Shown here: piece by piece, positions 4,400 to 25,653 of the stretch
Layout: each line of letters begins with the position of its first letter
How positions within the stretch are numbered: position 1 is the first letter of the stretch
Made by a program: the position numbers and the translations under genes
Notes under the pieces: model-generated
Databases searched by the model: none
Told to the model about the DNA's origin: nothing
The model's input: the letters and a program-made list of their open reading frames with translations, nothing else
Origin: Candidatus Sumerlaeota bacterium
GTDB lineage: Bacteria > Sumerlaeota > Sumerlaeia > JAPLSS01
Direction of reading: 5' to 3'
Length of the DNA stretch: 34,395 nt
NCBI GenBank assembly: GCA_026398515.1
Contig: JAPLSS010000776.1
Location: 1-34,395 of the forward strand

Positions 4400-7300
4400 A
4401 TGAGTATCCGTCGCTTGTTCACTACCCCGGGCGTCGACCCGCTCGACCGCGTCGACTACGAAAAACGGTCTTCCGTGATCACGAATCCCGACGGATCGGT
4501 GGTGTTTCAGATCCACAACGCCACCGTGCCGAAGGAGTGGTCGCAGTTGGCCACCGACATCGTGGCCTCGAAGTATTTTCGCAAGGCCGGCGTGCCCACG
4601 CCCGAGGGGAGAGAGACAAGCGTCCGCCAGGTCGTCACGCGGTTGGCCCGCACGATCCGCGAAGCGGGCGAGGCGCTCGGCGGCTACTTCGCGAGCATCG
4701 AGGAGGCGAGGGCGTTCGAAGCCGAGCTGGCGCATATTCTCGTGCATCAGATCGGCGCCTTCAACTCGCCGGTCTGGTTCAACCTCGGCCTTTACCACCG
4801 CTACGGCATCGCCGGCAGCGGCGGCAATTTCCATTGGGACGCGGAGCAGGGCGAGGCCGTCGAGATTAAGAACAACTACGAGTGGCCGCAGTGCTCGGCG
4901 TGTTTCATCCAGTCGATCGACGACAGTTTGATGTCGATCTTCGAGCTGCTGAAGAACGAGGCCAAGATCTTCAAATACGGCTCGGGCACGGGCACGAATT
5001 TCTCGCTCCTGCGCGGCAAGCAGGAGCCTCTGTCCGGCGGGGGCACCTCCTCCGGGCTGATGTCGTTCCTCGAGGTCTTCGACCGCGCCGCCGGGGCCAC
5101 GAAGTCCGGCGGCACGACGCGGCGCGCGGCGAAGATGGTCTGCCTCGACGCCGATCATCCGGAGATCATGGACTTCATCACCTGGAAGATGCGCGAGGAG
5201 CAGAAGGCGCAGGCCCTGATTCGCGAAGGCTGGTCGGCGGACTTCAATGGCGAGGCGTACCACACGATCTCCGGCCAGAATTCGAACAATTCCGTGCGCC
5301 TGACCGACGAGTTCATGCATCAGATTCTGCGCAAGGGCGAATGGAACACCCGCTACCGGTTGTCGAGCGAGATCTGCGAGACGTTCGACGCCGCCGACCT
5401 GTTCGACCAGATTTGCGAAGCCGCCTGGGCGTGCGCCGATCCCGGCGTGCAGTTCGACACCACCATCAACGACTGGCACACGGGGTCGAACACCGACCGC
5501 ATCCACGCCTCGAACCCGTGCTCGGAGTTCATGTTCCTCGACGACACGGCCTGCAACCTCGCCTCCATCAACCTGGTCAAGTTTCTGCGCGCGGACGGGT
5601 CGTTCGACATCAATGCGTATCGCCACGTCATCGAAATCCTCTTTGCCGCCCAAGAGATCCTCGTCGATTTCTCGTCCTACCCGACGAAACGCATCGCCGA
5701 GAACTCGCATCGGTTCCGTCCGCTGGGGCTGGGCTATGCGAACCTGGGCGCGCTGCTGATGCAGCTGGGCATCGGCTACGACAGCCCCGAAGCGGTGGCG
5801 CTGTGCGGCGCGCTGACGGCGATCATGACCGGCCACGCCTACGCCGCCTCGGCGCGCCTGGCCGAGAAGAAGGGGGCGTTCGAAGGCTTCGCCGCCAACC
5901 GCGAGCCGATGCTGCGCGTCATCCGCAAGCACCGCGAAGCGGCCCAAGGCATTTCCGCGGAGTTTTGTCCGAGCGGCCTGCTTGAAGCGGCGCGCCAGGA
6001 GTGGGACGAGGCGCTGCGATTGGGCGAGAAGGTCGGCTATCGCAACGCGCAGACCACCGTGCTGGCGCCGACGGGGACGATCGGGCTGCTAATGGACTGC
6101 GACACCACGGGGATCGAGCCCGACTTCTCGTTGGTCAAATTCAAGAAACTCGCCGGCGGCGGCTATTTCAAGATCGTCAACGCTTCGGTTCCCAAGGCGT
6201 TGCGGCGCATGGGCTATAGCGCCGAGCAGATCGCCGCGATCATCGAATACGTCGTCGGCCGCTTGAGTTTCGACGGTTCGCCGATCATCAACCGCCAGTC
6301 GCTGGCCGAGCGCGGCATGACCGAAGGCGAAATCGCGGCGGCGCAGGCGGCGCTGGCCGGCGCGTTCGACCTGCCCTCGGCTTTCGGGCCGCACATCATC
6401 GGCCCCGAGCCGTACGTGCGCCTGGGTCTGAACCCGAAGGACTCGTCGGGCGCCGATTGCCTGGCGCGTCTCGGCTTCTCGCGGGACCAGATCGAGGAGG
6501 CGGAATTCGACGTCTGCGGGCGCATGACGGTCGAAGGCGCGCCGTCTCTGCGCGACGAGCATCTGCCCGTGTTCGATTGCGCCAACCCCTGCGGCCGCCT
6601 GGGCAAGCGCTTTATTCCGCCGATGGGCCACCTGCGCATGATGGCCGCCGCTCAGCCGTTCATCTCCGGCGCCATCTCCAAGACGGTCAACGTGCCCAAC
6701 GACACGACCGCCGAAGAGATCCGCGAGATCTACATGGAAGGCTGGCGCATGGGATTGAAGGCCATCGCCCTCTATCGCGACGGCTGCAAGGCCAGCCAGC
6801 CGCTTTCGTCGAAGGCCACGCAGGAGAGCAAGGAACCGCTCGAACTCGACGCGGAGGAGCCGGCCGGGGAAGAGCCGCGGCCGGCGCCGGAGGCCCCGGC
6901 CAAGCTCGCCGCGGCGCCCGTGGCGGCCTCGGCCTCGGGCTCCTGGCCTCACAAGGCGCATCGGCGCCGTCTGCCCCGGCGCCGCAAGGGCATGACGTTC
7001 GAGGCCAAGGTTGGCGGCCACAAGGTCTTCCTGCGCACCGGCGAATACGAAGACGGCTCGCTGGGCGAGATCTTCATCGACATGCACAAGGCCGGCGCGG
7101 CGCTGCGCTCGATGATGAACTGCTTCGCCATCAGCGTGTCCAAGGGTTTGCAATACGGCGTGCCGCTCGAGGAGTTCGTCGACACGTTCGTCTTCACCCG
7201 CTTCGAGCCGCAGGGCACGGTCGACCATCCGAACATCCGCATGGCCACCTCGGTCATCGACTACATCTTCCGGCTGCTCGGCCTGGAGTACCTCGGCCTG

Positions 7301-14250: not shown

Positions 14251-14333
14251 TGTATGGAGTCCCGTCTTCGAGCGGTTCGTCAGCGAAACGCAACGACTCA
14301 CGACGAAGACCACTTGAAGGCGGAACTCCCTAC
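14251..14333. repeat. Decayed family 1 nested palindrome (copy C)
   Basis: TGTATGGAGTCCCGTCTTCGAGCGG...CTTGAAGGCGGAACTCCCTAC. Confidence 0.65.
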
Positions 14334-14337
14334 TCAA

Positions 14338-17300
14338 TCATTCCAATTCGAACAGATCCACGTCCCACGGCTTGACCGTGGTCTCGCCTTCGTGGCGCTC
14401 GCCGGTCAGGAGGCTGCGCCAGCGCGCCGGCTGGCCGTCGATCTCGATGCGCGCTTTCGCCGGCTCCTTGCCCAACCCCACGACATAGCCGAGGCGCCGT
14501 CTGCCCCTCTCCGCCGTCCGGAACTCCACCGGCTTCGACGTCTTCCCATCCGGCCCGATGCAGCGCGCGAGGCGTTGGATTCCGGCCCCTTCCAGCGCTT
14601 TCTCGAATGCTTGGCTGTCGGCGGCCTCGATCACCACGCCCTGGATCGCCGGCGGATTCGCGATGGGCGTTCCCTGAGGCGTCAAACTCAAGCATTCCTT
14701 GCCGATCAGGATCGTCGTCACTCCTTGCCCGGCGAGTCCGGCGACCGCCTCGCGCACGCCGGGGGAGGCGTGGCGCGCTCCGGCGACGACGAGCACGTCG
14801 AAGTCCTTGAAGCCGCCGAGCAGCATCTCTTCGGTCGCGAACCCCTGCGGCGCGTCCAGCCAACCGACCGCGTCGTAGGCGGCGATCTGCGTGTCGAGAT
14901 AGCCGACGTCGAGAATGGCCGACGGCTCCGAATACAGGAACCGGACGCGTGGCGCCGCGTCCTGGAAGGCGGCGATTTCGGGGGCGTGGCGCTGCACGGC
15001 GAGACTGTTGCGCCCGAAGGCGTCGAGCAACTGCGGCTGCGCCATGATCGAGCCTTCGAACCATTGCGTCTTCGGCTCCGTCCCCGTGCGCGACCACCAC
15101 CAGGTCATGTTGGCCTTCATGCCGTGGAGGTACGACAGCGAACGACATGAACGGCAGCGGATAGGCGATGCAATACTGCTTCGATTCCATGGTGGGGCGG
15201 GTGTCGCTGCCTTGAATGTCCAGAAAACGCGACAACGCCCAACGGTCGATCCCCTGGTAGTGGCGGCTGACCGACTGCGTCTGCCCCCTCTTGCCCTCGG
15301 CGCCTTGCAGCGTGATCTCGTTGGGAATCTTGACGTGCGCCGCCGCGTTGGGATCGCCGCGATGCACGGCGTCGGCCAACGCCTGAATGAAGGCCGTGAC
15401 GCGCGCCTCGTTCCAGCGGCACCAGTCGGTGTAGGCCGCCGGCTGCCCCGGATCGCGGGTGACGGGCTTGACCTGGTCGAACGTCTGGTAGTCCGAACCC
15501 CACGCTTCATTGAGTTTGTCGATCGACCCATAGCGGGCCTGCATGTCGGCGCGGAAGCGGGCCAGCCCGCGCTTCGAGATCTCCTCGTAGTTGGCTTCGT
15601 TCCACAGGTGATAGGCGAAGACGCCCGGCTCGGCGGCGAGGCGGCGCGCGGCCTCCTCTTGCGCCTTGCAGGCCAGATCGACCGCCTCCGGGCAGTCGAT
15701 GTCGAAGTCCATGAAGTGGCCCTTGGTCTTGCGAACGTCGGGGTAGTCCTTGACGAACCAATCCGGAACTCCCAGTTTGCCGGAGACGTCGGACCGAATG
15801 CCGAGTGCCGCGGCGGCGCGAATCCGCTCGCGGGCGGCCTCGATCGGCGCGTCCTCCGGCGCCGGCCCTTTGCCGAAGACGCGGCCGGCGCCGCCCGTGC
15901 TGGCGCCCGACAAATTGCAGCCCAGGCGCGACAACATGTCGTTGTGGTCGGGGTCCATCTGGTTGAAGCCGATGGGGAACATCAAGCGATCGCCGACGAA
16001 CCATCCGCCCTCGCGCAACTTGGCTTCCATCGCGTTGGGCGGCTGGACCGGCGGATGCGCGTCGGGCTGGGCCAGGATCGCTTCGGCTTCCTGGATCGCC
16101 TTGTCCACCAGCGGGGCCAGGCGTTCGACTTCGCGCTGGGCGAGGGTTTCGTAACCGCCGCGCGCCAGATCGGCCGGAATCCATTCGCCGAACAATTCCG
16201 CCGTGGCGAGCGTCACGTCGGGAAAGGCCATGTCGGCCTTCCGGTCGCGGCCCTTGGCGATAAGGTCCCTGAGCGTGTTGACGCGCTCTTCCAGTTGCGC
16301 AAGGCCTTTGCGCGTCTCTTCGGCCATGGCGCGAACCGGCAGGATTTCGAACCGCCAATCGCTGGAGAGCTTCCCGGAAGAAACCGCCGCGCGATGGGCG
16401 CCGGGCGCCAGGGAACCCGGCTCGAAGACAAAGGGAACCTGCGTGGCGCCGTACGAGGTCGCCGCATCGCGCCGGGCGGTCCGGGCGTCGGCTCCGTCGT
16501 CGAGAGTCAACGTCAGCGGCGCCGTTTGCGTTTCCTTGGCCACCGAAACCAACCAGGCCGTCAACTGCAGCGGCGCCGTGTCGGCCACCGGCGCGGGCGG
16601 CCCGTCCAAACTAAGTCCGAGCGTTTCGCCGCGCATCAGCAGGAGCGTGCCGAAATCCGCCGGGCGCTTGGCCTTCACGATTCCCGGCGTCCATTCGGCC
16701 CACTTCCGGCCGCCGCCGTCGCTGTCGTTGACGACGAGGGAGAATCCGAGGCGCTGGTTGTGCGTCGGCGCGCCCAGGCCGAGGCCGCTCCAGGGAATCG
16801 CGGCCTCGATCGCATAGCCATCGGCGGTCTTGGCGAAGCTCGCATGGATGTCTTCGACCGTTAGCGCGCTATCCTTGGGCGCGTAATCAATGTAGACCGG
16901 CGGCTTCTCCTTGGCCGTTCCGATGCCGAGCGCGTAGTCGCCTTCCCCGAAGCCGTCCGTCGAGCGCCGGTATTTCGTGTCGATCGCGAATTGAACGCTG
17001 TCGCCCTGCCAATAGGGTTCGGACGGATGAATGACGTCGTCGGTGACGTTGACGAGGAGATGGAGAGCATGCGCATCATGACGCAACCCGAACGAGAAAC
17101 TCAGATCGCGCTCGCCCTTCGAGACCTCGCGTTCCATGACGATGGCTTCGGCGTCGGAGACTTCCACGCTCTTTCCGACGCGCGCCATCGGCGTGCCGGC
17201 CCAGCCGTCGGCCTTCTCCATGACGGGATACACGCGGGACCGGGAGAACGGCTCCGTCTCCGGGCCGGCGGCGGAGGCGAGTTTCACGTCATCCAACCAC

Positions 17301-17821
17301 ACCGAGCCTTCCCCGTGCATGGCGAGGCGAATGACGGCCGACGCCGTGCCGGGCGGGGCGGTCAGGTCCTTCTTGACCAGGACCCACTTCGGCCCAACGC
17401 CCGACAGGCTGATTTCGCCGGATTCGACAACGTCGCCTTTCGCGTTGAGGAACCGCAGGGCTAAATGCGCCGCGTATGGTTTGCCCTCGCAGCGCGCCCA
17501 GCCGCTCAACCGGCGCTTTTCGCCGGGCGCCATCTTCTCGATCTTTAGGTCCCACCAGAACCAGGGGGTCTTCTCCTTGTAGGCGCTGACGATGCCGATG
17601 CAGCGCGCGCCCGAATGCGGCTGTTGCGCGTCCCAGACGAATTCGACTCCGGTCTGTTTGGTTTTGCTGGGAGTCCAGCCCAGGGGCAGATTCTTCCGGC
17701 CAGGGGATTCGAACCCGCCGTTTTGCGCGAGATCGGCGGCTTCAAGGGGTTTCGGTTCGGCGGCGAAGGCCGTGGCGATGAACCATGTAGCGAAAATCGA
17801 GAACAAGAGAGCAGATTTCAT
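14338..17821 (-). pseudogene. Exported CBM-containing GH42/beta-galactosidase-like enzyme, interrupted by a frameshift near 15130
   Basis: ORF 14330..17821 is enzyme-like down to 'CIAYPLPFMSFAV', then becomes nonsense; frame 14338..15531 resumes 'SYLHGMKANMTWWWSRTGTEPKTQWFEGSIMAQPQLLDAF...WDVDLFELE'. 'FAYHLWNEANYEEISKRGLARFRADMQARYGSIDKLNEAWG' is GH42-like. Confidence 0.8.
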
Positions 17822-17849
17822 TGAATGCGCCTTGGGGAGATTGGGCGGC

Positions 17850-17944
17850 GAGTTCGGAGTGACGCCTTTAGGCGTTATTCCAGGCGTTTCCGCAACCGCT
17901 CAAGGAACACCAGGAATAACGCCTAAAGGTGTCACTCCGAACTC
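17850..17944. repeat. REPIN-like nested palindrome, family 2
   Basis: GAGTTCGGAGTGACGCCTTTAGGCGTTATTCC 17850-17881 versus reverse complement arm 17913-17944, 31/32 identical; inner palindrome ACGCCTTTAGGCGT. Confidence 0.92.
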
Positions 17945-17952
17945 ACGGCGGC

Positions 17953-19779
17953 TCAATCCGTCGTGTCGAAACGCAGCGAGGCCGCGCCCCATTCGTCCTT
18001 GGTGAAGACCTCGAGCGCGCCGGCGGCCGGCAGCGTCTTCTCGGACTTCACCACGCCGATGGCCCGCGCCAGGTTGTTCACCATGTCGGTCATGTCCGCC
18101 GGCGCGTCGATGGAGCGCATGCCGCCGGCCTCCACGCCTTTCGACAGCGACTCCATCTTCAGCGGCTTGGCGCTGACGATGGCCTTGACGAATTCGCGCC
18201 CGGTGGGCTTCATGACCTGAAGGTCGTATTTGTCCGGCTGCGGAAGGACAATGTCCTTTTGCGCCTCGATCTGGCCGTCGGCGGCATACTGGTTGGGAAA
18301 GAGAACGTGCAGGCCGCCCTGGCAGTCGATGTTGACCAGCGAGAGATAGCCCGCCTTTTCCGACCGCACGATGAACTGCACCTTCTCGCCGAGGCGCAGG
18401 CGCGTGCCGCCCGATCCCAGGCGCACGGCCACCTTGTAGGGCGATTGCGGGTTCTCCATCCGTTGCAGGTTTTGGACGGCGTAGATGCGCTTGAGTTCGT
18501 CCACGAGCGGCTTGAGGCCCGCGGCGTCGAGCTGCGGCACGGTCATGCGCGTGGTGACCGGGCCGCCGGGGATCGCGGTCCCGACGGTGGCCGGCGCGCC
18601 TTTCTGGTAGAAGACCACCGCGTCGCATTCGGGTTTGGCCGGATCGGTCAGAGTCAGGAAGGGCTGCGCGCCCAACTGCGCCTTGAGCGCCGATTCCGTC
18701 GGCTCGTCCTTGCCGTCCTGCCGTCCCTCCAACTCGCCGAGCGACACGAGGCGGACGCGCAGCTGCCCGACCGTCTCGGTTTGTTGTGGAATCTGCACGC
18801 CGGAATCATACGGCTTGACCGGCGCGGGCGCCGCGTCGAAGGCGCGCAGCAGCGGCTTGTCCAGGAGAGGCTCCGCGGATTCGACGGACGGCAGCTGGCG
18901 GTTGCCCTCGATGACGATGGGTTGTTCGAGAAGCGACTTGATGTCGCGATACGTCGCCGGCTTGGTCGGGTCCAGCGTCTCGCCGCTGAGCGCCTTGACC
19001 AGCTTGACGGTGAGCGCGCCGTGCTCCTCGGTCTTGCCCTTGATCTCAAACGGCATTTCCCGCGCGCGCTCGTCGGGCTGGCAGGCGGCGATGAGAGTGG
19101 CGGCGCCTTGGTCTTCCGCGCCGCGGAAGTCGCGGTACCAGACTTCGCCGAGGGGAGTGGGCTGGACCGGGTCGTCGATCCCGCGCGTCCCGGCGCCCGG
19201 CTCGATCATCGGAATGTAGCGGGCATGGACCTTGGGATCCGCGACAAATTCCAGGCCACGCAAGCCCGTGCCGGAATGGCAGCAGTCGAAGATGGCGACG
19301 AACTCGCGGCCCGCCATCTCCGCGGCCCACTGGCCCAGTTCGTCGTCAATGACGCAGTTCTCGAATCCCTTCGCCTCGGTTCGCTGGCAGTCCGAGGGGA
19401 CGATGAACTCGTCCAGTTGGTCGGCTTCGTCGCCGTTGGTGTCGGGGATTTGCGAGCCATGGCCGCTGAAGTAGAAGACGGCCGTATCGCCCGCCTTCGT
19501 GCCCTGAATGAGAACCGTGCGGAACGCTTGGCGGATGCCGTCGGCGGTGGCCTGGCGGTCGAGCAGCAGGTGAACGTTGTCCTTGGCGAAGGCGAATCGC
19601 TCGATCAGCAGTTCGGCCATGAGCCGCGCGTCGTTCGTGCAGCCTTCGAGGGTCCATTGGGGGTTGTGGATGTACTCGTTGACTCCGACGAGCAGAGCAT
19701 AGCGTTCGGCATGGGCCGCGCCGCCGAAGGCGAGGGCGAAGACGAAAAGCAGGCAGAGAATTGCGCGTCGTCGTTTCAT
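17953..19779 (-). CDS. Exported caspase-family (peptidase C14) protein with C-terminal DUF4384-like domain
   Basis: Signal peptide 'MKRRRAILCLLFVFALAFGGAAHA'; 'YALLVGVNEY', His motif 'VFYFSGHGSQ', Cys motif 'AIFDCCHSGTGLRG'; C-terminal 'LRLGEKVQFIVRSEKAGYLSLVNIDCQGGLHVLFPNQ'. Confidence 0.88.
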   Translation of the reverse strand: MKRRRAILCLLFVFALAFGGAAHAERYALLVGVNEYIHNPQWTLEGCTNDARLMAELLIERFAFAKDNVHLLLDRQATADGIRQAFRTVLIQGTKAGDTAVFYFSGHGSQIPDTNGDEADQLDEFIVPSDCQRTEAKGFENCVIDDELGQWAAEMAGREFVAIFDCCHSGTGLRGLEFVADPKVHARYIPMIEPGAGTRGIDDPVQPTPLGEVWYRDFRGAEDQGAATLIAACQPDERAREMPFEIKGKTEEHGALTVKLVKALSGETLDPTKPATYRDIKSLLEQPIVIEGNRQLPSVESAEPLLDKPLLRAFDAAPAPVKPYDSGVQIPQQTETVGQLRVRLVSLGELEGRQDGKDEPTESALKAQLGAQPFLTLTDPAKPECDAVVFYQKGAPATVGTAIPGGPVTTRMTVPQLDAAGLKPLVDELKRIYAVQNLQRMENPQSPYKVAVRLGSGGTRLRLGEKVQFIVRSEKAGYLSLVNIDCQGGLHVLFPNQYAADGQIEAQKDIVLPQPDKYDLQVMKPTGREFVKAIVSAKPLKMESLSKGVEAGGMRSIDAPADMTDMVNNLARAIGVVKSEKTLPAAGALEVFTKDEWGAASLRFDTTD

Positions 19780-19848
19780 TTCAGGCATCTTCCTTCCGTG
19801 TGCTCGCAAAGCCCGTAAGCCACCCTGCGCGAAGCGCCTTGGAGACCC

Positions 19849-19924
19849 ATGGCGGCATAGGTTTTGCCGGATCAACCCCGGACAGGAGGTTTTCCACGGA
19901 TGGGCGCAAAACCTATGCCGCCAT
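19849..19924. repeat. Inverted repeat upstream of the caspase gene
   Basis: ATGGCGGCATAGGTTTTG 19849-19866 and perfect reverse complement CAAAACCTATGCCGCCAT 19907-19924. Confidence 0.9.
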
Positions 19925-20071
19925 ATAAGTGCGCCGCCAGAGCGAAGCGGCGACGGCGCACTCCAAGAAGGGCTAAAGCGATGTCTTATGACAAGCAACG
20001 CAGGGGCGGCGCGTCGCGCGCCGCCCCTGACAGAGTCGCCCTGGGACCCTTCTTCCAGCCGCGATCATCCG

Positions 20072-20662
20072 TTACCGATGCTGCAGGCCGACCTCGGCGA
20101 AGAGGAATTCCGGCGGTTCCTTCGACATGATCGTGTACTGGGTATACTGCTCCTTCACCGTCTTGGTCAGGGTGTAATCGCCGGTCATCGACCCCTTGAC
20201 TTTGTCGAGGGCCTTGGCGATCTCCTCCGACGGCGGGTCCTGTTTGTCGATCAGGTCGGTGAGCGCATCGGTCTTGTGCTTCGAGATGATCACGTAGAGC
20301 CATTCCGTGCCGGGCGTGTCGCCGAACTTCAGCCACTCGGTTTCCTTATAAGGGATGCGGACGGGCTGGCCGGTTTTCACTTCGTACGGCTCCATGCCCG
20401 ACGGCGACCGGGGAAACAGCGAGTGGTACTCGCCGCTGGAGCCTCGGTGGAACACGTAGCAGAAGCCGCTGAACGCCGGAGTGACCAGCAGGCGCATCTG
20501 GTCGCCGGTGCGGAATTCGAGCTTGTCCGGCGAGATGGCGGCCTCGGGCCTCTTGTCGATGGCCACGGCCACTCTCGTCGAGAGCTTCTGGCCGCACCCC
20601 GTCAGCGACAGCGACGCCGCGGCGACCGCCGCCAGGACGAACATGGAGCCCCGCCGTGTCAC
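20072..20662 (-). CDS. DUF4384-like lipoprotein
   Basis: Lipobox 'VAAASLSLTGCGQK'; 'LEFRTGDQMRLLVTPAFSGFCYVFHRGSSGEYHSLFP'; GTG start at 20662 overlaps the upstream stop, internal ATG at 20644 also possible. Confidence 0.75.
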   Translation of the reverse strand: MTRRGSMFVLAAVAAASLSLTGCGQKLSTRVAVAIDKRPEAAISPDKLEFRTGDQMRLLVTPAFSGFCYVFHRGSSGEYHSLFPRSPSGMEPYEVKTGQPVRIPYKETEWLKFGDTPGTEWLYVIISKHKTDALTDLIDKQDPPSEEIAKALDKVKGSMTGDYTLTKTVKEQYTQYTIMSKEPPEFLFAEVGLQHR

Positions 20663-21417
20663 GGAACATGCTTCAATTCGATCTGGTGAATCAGGATCGG
20701 CGACTGGGTCACGACGTAGCCCACCGACGGCTCCTGATGGTTCTCCTCGCCTTCGAAGCTTTCGGATTCGAAGTACAGGTCGCGCTTGCCCCCTTCGCCC
20801 TTCTTGGTCTCCGAGGTCACGGTTTGCCAGCCGTTGTCGTCGACGTTGGAGTTTTCGTCCGTACGAAGGGTGTTGAGGGAATCGATCGGCTTGGGCGCCA
20901 GGAAGATGTAGAGTTCCTCCTTGCCGGTCTTCTTGTCGAACTTGAACCAGCCCTTGTCCTGGCCGACGCGCGGCGGAATGGTCACCTCGGTGTACTTCTT
21001 GATCTTGTTGCGGCCTTCGTTGATGCGCGGATCGGGGAAGAGCTGCACGCCCTTGCTGGAGGCGCCCTTGTGATAGATGTAGAGATAGCCGTCGATGTTG
21101 CTTTCAAAGACAAAGCGGATGCTGTCGCCAGTGCTGAATTTGAACCGGTCCGTCACCGTGCGGATGTCGCCGTCGAGGTCCTTCAGGATGATCTTGTAGC
21201 GCAGGCCGATGCGCGGCGGGGCGCCCGGCTGCGATCCGCCGGATTCGTAGTACAGGTCCTTGGCTTGCTGCCCCGACGCGGCGGCGGCGGGCTTGCCCTT
21301 GGCCTCCCCGGCTTTCTTCTCGGCGGCGCCGGTCCACTGGGCGGCCAGCAGCAACACGCCGGCGAAGAGGGCGAGGCCCAGCAGGATTGGACGATACGAC
21401 ATGGATCTTGGCTTCAT
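20659..21417 (-). CDS. Exported DUF4384-like protein
   Basis: Signal-like 'YRPILLGLALFAGVLLLAAQWTGAAE'; 'FKFSTGDSIRFVFESNIDGYLYIYHKGASSKGVQLFPDPRIN'. Confidence 0.78.
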   Translation of the reverse strand: MKPRSMSYRPILLGLALFAGVLLLAAQWTGAAEKKAGEAKGKPAAAASGQQAKDLYYESGGSQPGAPPRIGLRYKIILKDLDGDIRTVTDRFKFSTGDSIRFVFESNIDGYLYIYHKGASSKGVQLFPDPRINEGRNKIKKYTEVTIPPRVGQDKGWFKFDKKTGKEELYIFLAPKPIDSLNTLRTDENSNVDDNGWQTVTSETKKGEGGKRDLYFESESFEGEENHQEPSVGYVVTQSPILIHQIELKHVP

Positions 21418-21507
21418 CGCAATATCCCCTTTCGTTCGATTCGTCATCGGGCGGGACGATCCCTGCCCGGGCGGGACGGTCCGCGTGCGACGATCCGTCC
21501 GCTCTCC

Positions 21508-22293
21508 TTACGCCTCATGTTTGAGCGTCAGATAGATGGTGATGGGCTCATGGAATCCCTCGGAGCTTTCGTCGGTCACGTAGTTGCCGGGCGTCTCGCC
21601 GGGGCCGGGATTTTCGTCCTGCTCCAGCACGAGATCGCGGCTGTTCGCGCCTTTCTTGCCGAAGACCTTGCCCTTGTTGGCGAGTTTGTCCCAGACCTTC
21701 TTCTGGTCCGTGCTCAGGTCAAACGCGCGCGATCCCTGGGCTTTGCTTTGCGCGTCGGCGATGTCCTCGAACTCCTGAATCTTCTCCGGGGACAGGACGA
21801 GGCACAGTTCCTCGTCGCCGGGTTCGCCTTTGAATTGGAACGCGCCTTTTTCCGTCGGCATGGTGCGGGTCTGGCGCGCCTTGACGAAGTTCTCCCGGCC
21901 GGCGGGCCCGGGATACAGCATGGTCACATCGCCGGACGTGCCCTTGTTGACCAGGTAGCAGTACGCGTTGACGTTGGCGGCAAACTTGAAGACGACCTTG
22001 TCGCCGGTGTGGAACGTCTCCTCGTCGGTGTCGGTGACGTAGTCCAGGTCCTTCTTGCCCTTCTCGTCTTCCTGCGTCCAGCGCTCGACCCAGAACTTCA
22101 CGGTCGGCTTGACCTGATCGGGCGGCGTGTCTTGATCCAGGTAGAGGTCCTTGTTGTGATGCTTGGTTTCCTTGCTCTTGCCCTCGGCGGCGGATTTCCC
22201 GCCTCCGCTCGGCGCCGCGCCCGCCAGCGCCGCGGCCAGCAGGAACAGACCAACGTGCAAACCTGCCTGGGTCCACCCTTTGCGGAACATCAT
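21508..22293 (-). CDS. Exported DUF4384-like protein
   Basis: Signal peptide 'AGLHVGLFLLAAALAGAAP'; 'ETFHTGDKVVFKFAANVNAYCYLVNKGTSGDVTMLYPGPAGREN'. Confidence 0.78.
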   Translation of the reverse strand: MMFRKGWTQAGLHVGLFLLAAALAGAAPSGGGKSAAEGKSKETKHHNKDLYLDQDTPPDQVKPTVKFWVERWTQEDEKGKKDLDYVTDTDEETFHTGDKVVFKFAANVNAYCYLVNKGTSGDVTMLYPGPAGRENFVKARQTRTMPTEKGAFQFKGEPGDEELCLVLSPEKIQEFEDIADAQSKAQGSRAFDLSTDQKKVWDKLANKGKVFGKKGANSRDLVLEQDENPGPGETPGNYVTDESSEGFHEPITIYLTLKHEA

Positions 22294-22458
22294 CGCATGC
22301 CCCTCCTTTTGTGTGGTTGCGGATTGCTGCTATCCGATGTCGCCGGCGTCAGGAAATCTTGCCGGGAAAAATCCGTGCGCCAACGATGACCGGGCGCGAT
22401 GAAACTTGCAACGCCGATTTTCTCCATCGGGGGAGAGACTCGACGCGCCGAAACGCCG

Positions 22459-22680
22459 CTACTCCTTTCGCCGCCCCGCTCGCACGAATCGCACGATTTC
22501 CTCGCGACTCAGGCCGAGATCCAGCCCCGGAACATCGAGCGGAGAGCGCGTCGCGGAATCCGGGCGAAGAACGAACACCTGCCCGTCTTTTCGGCGGATC
22601 CGAACCGCGCCTTCGCGCCGGGCTTTTTCCAATACTGTGGCCAGCTGCTGCCTAGCCTCGGAATACGTAAAGACCCTCAT
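22459..22680 (-). CDS. Phd/YefM-like antitoxin
   Basis: 'MRVFTYSEARQQLATVLEKARREGAVRIRRKDGQVFVLRPD'; start overlaps toxin stop by 4 nt (ATGA). Confidence 0.82.
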   Translation of the reverse strand: MRVFTYSEARQQLATVLEKARREGAVRIRRKDGQVFVLRPDSATRSPLDVPGLDLGLSREEIVRFVRAGRRKE

Positions 22681-23075
22681 AACTTCACCTCGATAACCCG
22701 AATTCCCGCGGAACAAGCCGCCTGAATCAGACCCTTGTCCAGGGCAAGAAGCTCGCATCCCTGACGCTGGGCACATGCCAAAACATAGGCGTCGTACGCA
22801 TAGATCCTGTGCCGGGCAGCGATCTCCAAAGACGTATCGAGGTCGACTTCCACGAATCGTATCGAGATCTGCCGATACACGATCAAGACTTCGAGGGCCT
22901 GCCGCAGAGTAATGCGATTGCGCTTCAGCATGGCAGCCAGCGCGTTCCCGATCTCCCAGTGAACCGAAGCAGGAGCGATGAGATCGGCGCCGCGCGTGCG
23001 CTCGACCAGGGCTTTGCGTTGAGGTTCGCTGGTCAAGACGGCGATGAGCGCGGAAGTATCGACGACGAGCTCCAT
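22677..23075 (-). CDS. PIN-domain (VapC-like) toxin
   Basis: 'MELVVDTSALIAVLTSEP', 'SVHWEIGNALAAML', 'YAYDAYVLACAQRQGCELLALDKGL': full set of PIN acidic residues. Confidence 0.88.
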   Translation of the reverse strand: MELVVDTSALIAVLTSEPQRKALVERTRGADLIAPASVHWEIGNALAAMLKRNRITLRQALEVLIVYRQISIRFVEVDLDTSLEIAARHRIYAYDAYVLACAQRQGCELLALDKGLIQAACSAGIRVIEVKL

Positions 23076-23174
23076 GGCATCACCTATGTACAATTGTACG
23101 TAGATTGGGCCCTGCGCGTCTACAACAAAACCCCTGGAAACAGCGCGATCGGTCGCGCTGGCGCGGCAATGAAC

Positions 23175-25250
23175 TCACTCGCTCCGCGCGTAGTAGCCGT
23201 TGAACTCCAGCCCCTTCGTCACCCGGAATTGATAGAACTGATTGGAAAAATAGGCCGCCGACAGCGCCGGGCTCAGCGCGTAGTGGCACTTCATCACGTT
23301 CTTCGACGAAAGCTCCAGAGCGATCTTCGCGCCTTCGGAGTTGGTGTAGCTCAAGCGCTTGCCGTCGGACGACAGGGTCGGCGCGTACGTCTCGACCCCG
23401 GTCGGCAGGGCGGGATTGCGGTTGACGAGGCTCCATTTGCCCCCTTCGCGAGAGATGGCCACCGTGCCCTGCGCGTTGGCCGTCACGATCTGGTTGACGA
23501 AATTCTGGCGGATGGTCGCGCGGAACTGCTGGAGGTCGACTCCGGCCTGCGCGGCGACCTGATCCAGCGGCATGCCTTGATCGCGGAAGAGCTGCTCATA
23601 GAACGCAAGGCAGTCCCTGCCGACGGAATCCGACGTCTTCTCCACGTCCAGCCGCCATACGCCCTCGAACGCGGGCGCGGCGGCCACGGCGGTCTCGGGC
23701 GTCGGCTTGACGGGCGCCGCCGGCGTGGAGACGACCGCGGGGGGCGCGCCGGCGGCTTCCACGGTGAACTCGAGGGAGGAGGGCTCCGAGCGCCCTCCGC
23801 GCGCGTCCTCGGCCCTCACGGTCAGCGTGCGCGGACCCGCCTTGAGTTTCGACATGCGGATCTGGGGCGAAGAGGACTCGGAGTCGGACGACTGTCCATT
23901 GAGACGGTAGCAGTATTTCGCGATGGCGTCGCCGTCCGGATCGCTCGCCACGACTTCGAACAAAACGTCTTCGCCCGCCTGGATGGTCTCCTGCGTCAGG
24001 TTGATGGATTCGATGATCGGCGGCTTGTTGCTCGGCGCCGCCGCGGCGGCGGGCGTGGCGAGGGCCGGCGTGGGGGACGGCGTGGCGGCGGAAGGAGTCT
24101 CTTGCAGCAGTTGGTCGATGTACTGCGGGCGCAACTTGCCGTTCGCGACATCCAACGCCGCTTGCTGGCGGTTGGAGTCTTTCGAGGCCAGCGCCTTCTG
24201 CGCCAGCGCGTGCTGTTCAGCGGTCAGTTTCCCGTCGGCGAACATTTGCGAGAGGGTCTGCGCGGCTTGAATCAACTCCTGCTTTTGCCGCGCGAGTTGA
24301 TCGAGATAGGCGCGGCTGACCGCCAGCGGCAGGTCGCCGGTGGCTTCGCGCAAATCGAAGCGGGGCGATTGCTTCCCGCCCGGCTGCGTGCGGCTCCACT
24401 CCTCGACCTGCTGTTTGACCCACTTCGACAGCGAGGAGGCGGTGATCAACCCGTCGGGGCCGGCCGGGGCGCCGCCGCGCAGGCCCTGCATCAGGAAATA
24501 CGTGAACGCGCCGTGGCCCTGTTCGGGCATCTCGTAACTGAACTGTCCTTGGTCGCAGGACATCAGCACGGCGAAGCCCTCGGCGGTGGAGAAGGCTTTG
24601 GCGAACTGCTCCGACATGCCGCCGCTCAGAGCGCGCTGGCCGTCGTTGGCGACTTTCTCGCGGCAGGCGTCGAAGAACAGCAGCCGGCGCGGCGAGCGGG
24701 AGCCGTTCAGGTAGTCCTCCACGCGCTGGAGCGGAATGGCGGAATCCTCGAGAATCGCGCGCTGGCTGTCTTCAGCCAGCACGTAGCCTTCGATCCCGTG
24801 GGTCGACAGGTCGACGACGAGGCAGCCGTTGGGTCCGGCGGAGTCGGCGGCGAGCTTGATCGCCTTGAGGATGTTCGAGCGGGTGGGGGCGTCCTCGCCG
24901 GTCGCGCCCGTGATCAGCAGGCGCGTGTTCTCCGGCGGCAGGTAGCCGAGTTCGCCGACGAAGCACTCGCGCATGGACTGGGCGTCGGCGGCCGCGTATT
25001 TCAGCGAGACGATCGTGGAATCGCTGGGAAATTGATCGACGCCGACGAAGACGCCGTAGCTTTGCGAACGTTGCGCGGCGTACTTGTCGGGGTTCGATTG
25101 CGCCAGGGGAACCACGCCGATCGCGCGGCTGCCGCCGGACGCCGCTTCGGCCGCTTCCGCGGCCAAGGCGCGCGCGAACGAACCGGACAGGGCGAATGCG
25201 ACAACCAGGGAAGCGCCAAGTCGGGACCGGCGGAAACAGCTAACCTTCAT
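23175..25250 (-). CDS. Exported caspase-family (peptidase C14) protein with C-terminal Ig-like region
   Basis: Signal peptide; 'YGVFVGVDQFP', His motif 'VVDLSTHGIEGYVL', Cys motif 'RLLFFDACREKV', 'GFAVLMSCDQGQFSYEMPEQGHGAFTYFLMQGL'; Ig-like 'PPIIESINLTQETIQAGEDVLFEVVASDPDGDAIAKYCYRLNG'. Confidence 0.85.
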   Translation of the reverse strand: MKVSCFRRSRLGASLVVAFALSGSFARALAAEAAEAASGGSRAIGVVPLAQSNPDKYAAQRSQSYGVFVGVDQFPSDSTIVSLKYAAADAQSMRECFVGELGYLPPENTRLLITGATGEDAPTRSNILKAIKLAADSAGPNGCLVVDLSTHGIEGYVLAEDSQRAILEDSAIPLQRVEDYLNGSRSPRRLLFFDACREKVANDGQRALSGGMSEQFAKAFSTAEGFAVLMSCDQGQFSYEMPEQGHGAFTYFLMQGLRGGAPAGPDGLITASSLSKWVKQQVEEWSRTQPGGKQSPRFDLREATGDLPLAVSRAYLDQLARQKQELIQAAQTLSQMFADGKLTAEQHALAQKALASKDSNRQQAALDVANGKLRPQYIDQLLQETPSAATPSPTPALATPAAAAAPSNKPPIIESINLTQETIQAGEDVLFEVVASDPDGDAIAKYCYRLNGQSSDSESSSPQIRMSKLKAGPRTLTVRAEDARGGRSEPSSLEFTVEAAGAPPAVVSTPAAPVKPTPETAVAAAPAFEGVWRLDVEKTSDSVGRDCLAFYEQLFRDQGMPLDQVAAQAGVDLQQFRATIRQNFVNQIVTANAQGTVAISREGGKWSLVNRNPALPTGVETYAPTLSSDGKRLSYTNSEGAKIALELSSKNVMKCHYALSPALSAAYFSNQFYQFRVTKGLEFNGYYARSE

Positions 25251-25387
25251 CGCGTGTCCTCCCCTCGGGCGGCGAGCCGCGCCCTTGCGAAGAAGCAGAC
25301 TTCAATGCGTCCAAATGTTCGATCCTGAAATGCGAAATCACTTTAACGCAAAGCGCGCCAGGGATGCAATGAATTCGAGCATCACGA

Positions 25388-25653
25388 TAGGGGTAGGAAG
25401 AGCGCATTGATTTGCGCCCCCCCTCCCTCCGAACCGCACGTGCGGTTCTCCCGCATCCGGCTCTCCAGTTGAGGGTTGGCCGCCAGGCGGGTCGACCGGC
25501 GGCGGCGCGGGCGGCCCCAAGGGAGAACAGCCCGCGCGCAGCAAAGTAGGCGTTGGGCCAGCGTTGGGGGTCGGCTCCGCGGGCGCGGCCTTGGAGTTTG
25601 CGTCGCTTGCGCAGGATGCCGCGCAGGCGGCTCTTCGGCTGCTCCAGCATGAA
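25388..25653 (-). mobile_element. Truncated group II intron 3' end: maturase C-terminus plus domain V/VI
   Basis: Reverse strand GAGCCGGATGCGGGAGAACCGCACGTGCGGTTC (25463-25431) reads as domain V, followed by a DVI-like GCGCAaatcaaTGCGC hairpin; preceded by 'RLRGILRKRRKLQGRARGADPQRWPNAYFAARGLFSL', typical of intron RT/maturase C-termini. Confidence 0.78.

Follow-up and report, generated by a model that had tools for sequence, protein, structure and literature searches.

Two predicted exported caspases beside three DUF4384 proteins in a Sumerlaeota bacterium: a candidate envelope proteolysis module

A locus in Candidatus Sumerlaeota bacterium (assembly GCA_026398515.1, contig JAPLSS010000776.1), in which two predicted exported C14 proteases, caspase-1 and caspase-2, share a strand with three predicted exported DUF4384 proteins, A, B and C, one of them a predicted lipoprotein, raises the question of what bacterial caspases act on. 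Caspase homologs have been known in bacteria for more than two decades, mostly without substrates. The whole stretch of DNA that was analysed, 34,395 nucleotides long, is hereafter called the window. An earlier note, made from the letters alone, described seven consecutive minus-strand genes in it, a toxin–antitoxin (TA) pair included, and all seven open reading frames (ORFs) are present, essentially where it had placed them. We find that the association of caspase and DUF4384 genes recurs across bacteria and is not due to chance. The reading that we favour, at a probability of roughly 0.5, is that of an envelope proteolysis module, in which DUF4384 would act as an extracytoplasmic docking or sensing domain and proteolysis-gated signalling would be the most likely output. 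The five genes concerned are as follows.

23175..25250, minus strand: caspase-1, predicted exported C14 protease; His151 in STHG, Cys196 in FDACRE; PKD/Big-like region at 408-500; variable C-terminus
21508..22293, minus strand: DUF4384 protein A, predicted exported; Pfam E=2e-15
20659..21447, minus strand: DUF4384 protein B, predicted exported; likely start 21417; Pfam E=4e-14
20072..20662 (or 20072-20644), minus strand: DUF4384 protein C, predicted lipoprotein (LTGC lipobox); Pfam E=8e-9
17953..19788, minus strand: caspase-2, predicted exported metacaspase-type C14; SGHGSQ and FDCCHSG, acidic motif DGDE; C-terminal DUF4384 at 464-542

Both caspases are predicted C14 proteases with a complete catalytic dyad, scoring 73.3 and 77.8 bits against the curated Pfam cut-off of 21.4 bits for Peptidase_C14 (PF00656), with E=3e-20 for caspase-1 and E=1e-21 for caspase-2. 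The His and Cys motifs that the earlier note had picked out are intact when aligned to the C14 model, and the paralog-like region suspected at the end of caspase-2 is a Pfam DUF4384 domain (E=2e-18), so that this protein is a C14–DUF4384 fusion. Proteins A, B and C, previously called DUF4384-like, score 57.0, 52.9 and 36.0 bits against the cut-off of 27 bits for DUF4384 (PF14326), and the profile searches proposed at the time thus place both families above their curated cut-offs. Export was called by simple rules of hydropathy, charge, AxA site and lipobox, under which all five proteins have a basic n-region and a hydrophobic core, together with an AxA-type site or a lipobox; this agrees with the Sec-type export claimed earlier, and the LTGC lipobox lies in the third paralog, protein C.

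Caspase-2 is metacaspase-like both in its sequence, which matches plant metacaspases of the PDB at E=2e-15 (phmmer), and in its AlphaFold model, which Foldseek matches to plant metacaspases (E=3e-15) and to GSU0716 (E=7e-12); the acidic DGDE/DE motif is also present. Caspase-1 belongs to a different C14 subtype. Its catalytic part is 54-74% identical to paralogs of its own genome, and four paralogs keep this catalytic half with the C-terminus swapped (PKD/Big-like in the window, Sel1 repeats on contig C604); no relatives came to light when the caspase-1 alignment was run against named genomes. Against the profile of EACC1-associated caspases (NF047832), the two proteases reach 70.4 and 53.7 bits, below the NCBIfam cut-off of 140 bits, and Pfam detects no TPR in either, both having C14 rather than a CHAT-TPR architecture. 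Protein A is 61% identical to its paralog on contig C139, and the AlphaFold 2 model of protein B is a beta-sandwich with a predicted local distance difference test score of about 90 across the domain.

Recurrence of caspase and DUF4384 genes

In a less biased sample of 233 genomes, co-location was defined as a separate DUF4384 gene no more than 6 kb from a C14 gene, and the expectation was taken from gene density. Such genes number 24, in 14 other genomes each of a different family, where 0.70 would be expected; "separate" here means differing open frames, and a few of the 24 may be frame-broken fusions. The standalone DUF4384 gene beside a caspase, which had been put forward as an arrangement from the window alone, is accordingly non-random and widespread. 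When named genomes were scanned with caspase-2, 79 loci in many phyla came up, 53 of them non-alphaproteobacterial. Among these 53, standalone DUF4384 genes occur at 9 of 15 C14–DUF4384 fusion loci as against 0 of 38 others, and more than one caspase at 14 of 15 as against 7 of 38. In a Blastocatellia cluster (L091), a full-length relative of proteins A and B stands directly before a C14–DUF4384 gene, and the cluster also contains a kinase–DUF4384 protein; the fusions to C14 and to kinases named in the earlier note are both supported. Rhizobiales loci (L101, L103-L107 and others, about 5.5-9.0 kb) carry two caspases in tandem, of which the second is a DUF4384 fusion; ahead of them lies a large DUF4384 protein (about 1100 amino acids), with cytochrome c domains in the copy scanned, that of L104.

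The source genome itself holds a second cluster, on contig C323, where one direction of transcription runs through genes for DUF4384, subtilase–DUF4384, DUF4384, a caspase-2-type C14, a caspase-1-type C14, a membrane anti-sigma-like protein and an ECF-type (extracytoplasmic function) sigma factor. Its caspase-1-type and caspase-2-type proteins are 68% and 46% identical to those of the window; the reading frame of the latter breaks ahead of a further DUF4384, and the anti-sigma-like protein carries a TPR region. Every part also occurs alone, yet both caspase types and DUF4384 combine twice in this genome. Four neighbouring proteins within the C323 cluster (L002, 962-3556, 3471-4832, 5726-6742 and 9004-10164) share a C-terminal L-G/E-x-LF-(E/K)KK-like motif confined to it, the anti-sigma-like protein (LGNLFQ) and the subtilase (LEGLFKK) included; an LFEKK motif as a system-wide tag was rejected, the exact pattern occurring only in C323 apart from chance-level matches. 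On contig C517, a caspase-1 paralog (L069, 10186-12075) is interrupted by an in-frame TAG and a second, truncated caspase-1 N-terminus lies nearby (about 5646-5894), both being decaying copies.

Among 39 genomes of the same class, DUF4384 was found in 33 and C14 in 9, the latter figure being a minimum, since caspase-1 itself escaped the genome search, and in three other genomes a caspase adjoins a separate DUF4384 gene.

From a proposed docking domain to possible signalling

The clue that points this association towards signalling comes from outside the window. At six loci in four sampled genomes, an ECF sigma gene is followed by a protein with a zf-HC2-like, anti-sigma-like N-terminal part and a C-terminal DUF4384, and then by an exported caspase with its dyad intact. 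Hydropathy gives a transmembrane helix between the two halves of the anti-sigma protein in five of the six (below threshold in L174), and places DUF4384 outside the cytoplasmic membrane, in the compartment that is also predicted for the caspases. A profile of these proteins matches 17 times in genome G255 and 18 times in G257, where sigma, anti-sigma–DUF4384 and C14 genes stand together at 18 of the 20 loci read (L192-L211), although these 18 are not independent because the two genomes are related. The expansion, with up to 17-18 anti-sigma–DUF4384-like genes per genome, most of them with an ECF sigma before and an exported caspase after, looks large and undescribed. Ser/Thr kinases joined through a transmembrane helix to DUF4384 also adjoin ECF sigma genes in the genome sample; L173 (7205-9851) and L175 (3763-6271) are loci of this kind in which no caspase was detected. 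Over all 79 named loci, the presence of an ECF sigma gene within 10 kb does not clearly exceed the frequency roughly estimated for chance, and only direct adjacency, as in Bacteroidota and in the cassettes, is informative. Four Bacteroidales loci (L121, L129, L146, L147) have a sigma-70-type gene directly after the caspase gene and no DUF4384. The suggestion of envelope signalling made in the earlier note is therefore upheld in flavour, by the sigma and anti-sigma genes of C323 and the cassettes of other lineages.

Since DUF4384 forms the outer part of anti-sigma factors and kinases beside ECF sigma genes, proteolysis-gated signalling appears to be the most likely output of the envelope module. 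Its beta-sandwich would bring caspases together with regulators or substrates, in cis on caspase-2, in trans as the soluble or lipid-anchored proteins A-C, and, in relatives, as the outward-facing part of membrane-bound anti-sigma factors and Ser/Thr kinases. A caspase held or targeted through DUF4384 would, on receiving an envelope cue, cleave its partner, and a regulator would then be released, either by cutting of the DUF4384 partner or through gating by it. The window locus may represent a branch with soluble DUF4384 partners; the physical interaction, the caspase cleavage of the DUF4384 proteins, the signal and any output of this copy are inferred.

An alternative without any signalling would have the caspases serve in the maturation or breakdown of surface or secreted proteins, with DUF4384 binding polymers or substrates. 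Subtilase–DUF4384 fusions (in C323 and in Riflebacteria L152) are in keeping with such processing or scavenging, as are the exported proteins combining LPP20-like and DUF4384 domains that adjoin caspases, and the best, non-significant fold matches of the DUF4384 beta-sandwich are binding domains; the anti-sigma and kinase proteins that carry DUF4384 beyond a transmembrane helix, beside ECF sigma genes, are left unexplained by it, and we consider it unlikely. The DUF4384 proteins might also be inhibitors or chaperones of the caspases, that is, trans-acting prodomains that are neither substrates nor sensors. This would suit a domain that forms the C-terminus of a caspase and is also provided in trans by neighbouring genes, and we met no specific counterpoint to it; it overlaps with the envelope module, and as a separate explanation we give it only a very slight chance.

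Several observations weigh against the envelope proteolysis module. The window contains no detected sigma, anti-sigma or kinase gene, the ECF sigma gene of C323 having no counterpart there. The zf-HC2 matches of the anti-sigma–DUF4384 proteins are weak and mostly just under the Pfam cut-off, and the DUF4384 model has no significant fold match in the PDB. Most genomes of the class have one DUF4384 and no detected C14. Within the source genome, caspase-1-type genes lie on C517 and C604 with no DUF4384 detected on either contig, and DUF4384 genes occur without a caspase on C457 and on C139, the latter with two genes that bear A-, B- and C-like domains, two of these domains being fused. The conservation of the neighbourhood, which had been proposed as a check, holds for the adjacency of caspase and DUF4384 genes (three genomes of the class and 14 sampled genomes) but not for the exact window arrangement, which has no close relative outside the source genome. 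A bolder extension of the module, possible although we lean against it, is a trans-envelope pathway widespread among bacteria. Exported caspases would there make the first cut on DUF4384-bearing membrane anti-sigma factors and would act on, or be gated by, soluble DUF4384 proteins; the pathway would have been amplified to 17-18 anti-sigma–DUF4384-like copies per genome in some lineages, with the window as its soluble-partner branch.

Boundaries of the locus

The remaining features of the locus bear on which genes belong together.

22459..23093, minus strand: PIN toxin and weak Phd-like antitoxin, overlapping; judged an insertion, outside the system
23088..23122, minus strand: promoter-like site and GTACAATTGTAC palindrome, in front of PIN
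23133..23160, minus strand: 8-bp hairpin after caspase-1, possible weak terminator
20001..20029, minus strand: strong 13-bp G+C hairpin, terminator-like, between DUF4384 protein C and caspase-2; region z=-2.2
19849..19924, no strand: 19-nt perfect inverted repeat, dispersed, upstream of caspase-2; 12 own-genome BLAST matches
17845..17949, no strand: 44-nt inverted repeat, dispersed, resembling repetitive extragenic palindromes or miniature inverted-repeat transposable elements (REP/MITE-like); 88 own-genome BLAST matches

PIN exceeds its Pfam cut-off and the Phd match falls just under (28.1 vs 29.8 bits); the two genes overlap, toxin first, and their third-position G+C content is lower (0.68 vs about 0.85). 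The earlier note had counted the TA module in the system, and we excluded it because it is missing from the C323 cluster and is preceded by a promoter-like site and a palindrome of its own; it looks like an inserted cassette. The palindromes on both sides of caspase-2 are dispersed, REP/MITE-like repeats of the host genome, their counts of 88 and 12 including both strands, as each palindrome matches twice. Because of the hairpin before caspase-2 and these dispersed palindromes, several transcription units are a better reading than a single seven-gene operon, which is not supported either by the gaps of 90-283 bp between the genes; the seven genes probably form at least three or four units.

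The hairpins and repeats that separate the window genes, and the occurrence of both families alone as well, would fit a loose neighbourhood, where caspase and DUF4384 genes pile up in gene-rich accessory regions without joint action. Against this stand the 24 co-locations for 0.7 expected, and the fusions, split genes and shared gene order that recur in unrelated families, and we regard such a neighbourhood as improbable. Known bacterial death caspases are cytosolic, unlike the exported caspases of the window, and this counts against cell death or fratricide, in which the caspases would kill the cell or its neighbours and the TA pair would be an extra toxic part. The TA pair is not conserved alongside caspases, single genomes have numerous caspase paralogs, and neither a pore-former nor a partner for immunity or defence was found. 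Caspase homology, matches to the generic caspase model of PADLOC and the programmed cell death or fratricide role proposed for exported metacaspases (PMC3501461) speak for such a killing role; it has, in our estimation, a low probability, and altruistic death, named earlier among the possible functions, finds no positive evidence.

Two neighbouring features complete the window. A group II intron domain 5/6 (Rfam RF00029, 52 bits) lies at 25387-25465 on the minus strand, just upstream of caspase-1, and the intron remnant extends to about 25700, with a fragment like the C-terminus of an intron-encoded protein and no intact reverse transcriptase seen. At 14330-17821, also on the minus strand, a large exported glycoside-hydrolase-like ORF has an apparent frameshift near 15.1-15.5 kb, its second half continuing in an overlapping ORF (14338-15531).

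Comparison with known systems

Orthocaspases and metacaspases resemble the window proteins in the C14 His/Cys dyad, in DUF4384 fusions and in predicted export. Among the accessory domains listed for cyanobacterial orthocaspases is DUF4384, in 23 of these proteins (PMC8283722), and exported metacaspases, multi-metacaspase operons and sigma factors in some of these operons have been described or predicted (PMC3501461). In contrast, DUF4384 in the window mostly has genes of its own, for exported proteins, next to two different caspases, and clusters with anti-sigma and subtilase partners are not described in the papers found. Alphaproteobacterial pseudo-orthocaspases combining a trypsin-like domain, p20(QC) and DUF4384 (PMC6426788) likewise bring together a protease, a caspase fold and DUF4384, but in a single polypeptide with a mutated dyad, whereas the window proteins keep the dyad. 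The open-licence literature searched for DUF4384 yielded no described gene clusters with this domain. C14–DUF4384 fusions are already known, while for clusters of caspases with standalone DUF4384 genes we found no description.

The sigma, anti-sigma–DUF4384 and C14 cassette did not appear in targeted open-literature searches, and may have been mentioned earlier within ECF classification work. ECF54 contexts include subtilase and CHAT proteins and are reported without an anti-sigma factor (PMC8999054); the shared feature is an ECF sigma factor with subtilase and caspase-fold proteases nearby, and C14 and DUF4384 go unmentioned in that report. In the CRISPR-associated CASP/Craspase system (Csx29-Csx30-CASP-sigma), a sigma inhibitor is the substrate of a caspase-fold protease (PMC10028731), and protease, sigma inhibitor and ECF sigma share a single locus, as in the cassettes. 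That protease is, however, a cytoplasmic, CRISPR-gated CHAT-TPR protein with a Cas7-11 effector, while here it is an exported C14 with no CRISPR parts, Cas genes being absent from the part of the window ORFs that was scanned.

The recurrent pairing with DUF4384, together with the cassette, provides concrete candidate substrates or regulators for bacterial caspases and suggests caspase-based signalling from the cell envelope, and DUF4384, scarcely mentioned in the open literature, gains a testable function. A functional analogy is DegS-RseA-SigmaE, with an envelope protease above a membrane anti-sigma factor and an ECF sigma factor. The analogy concerns the cassettes of relatives, not the window locus; these would put a caspase in the role of DegS-type proteases in envelope stress signalling, and differ in having a caspase in place of DegS and DUF4384 as the outer domain.

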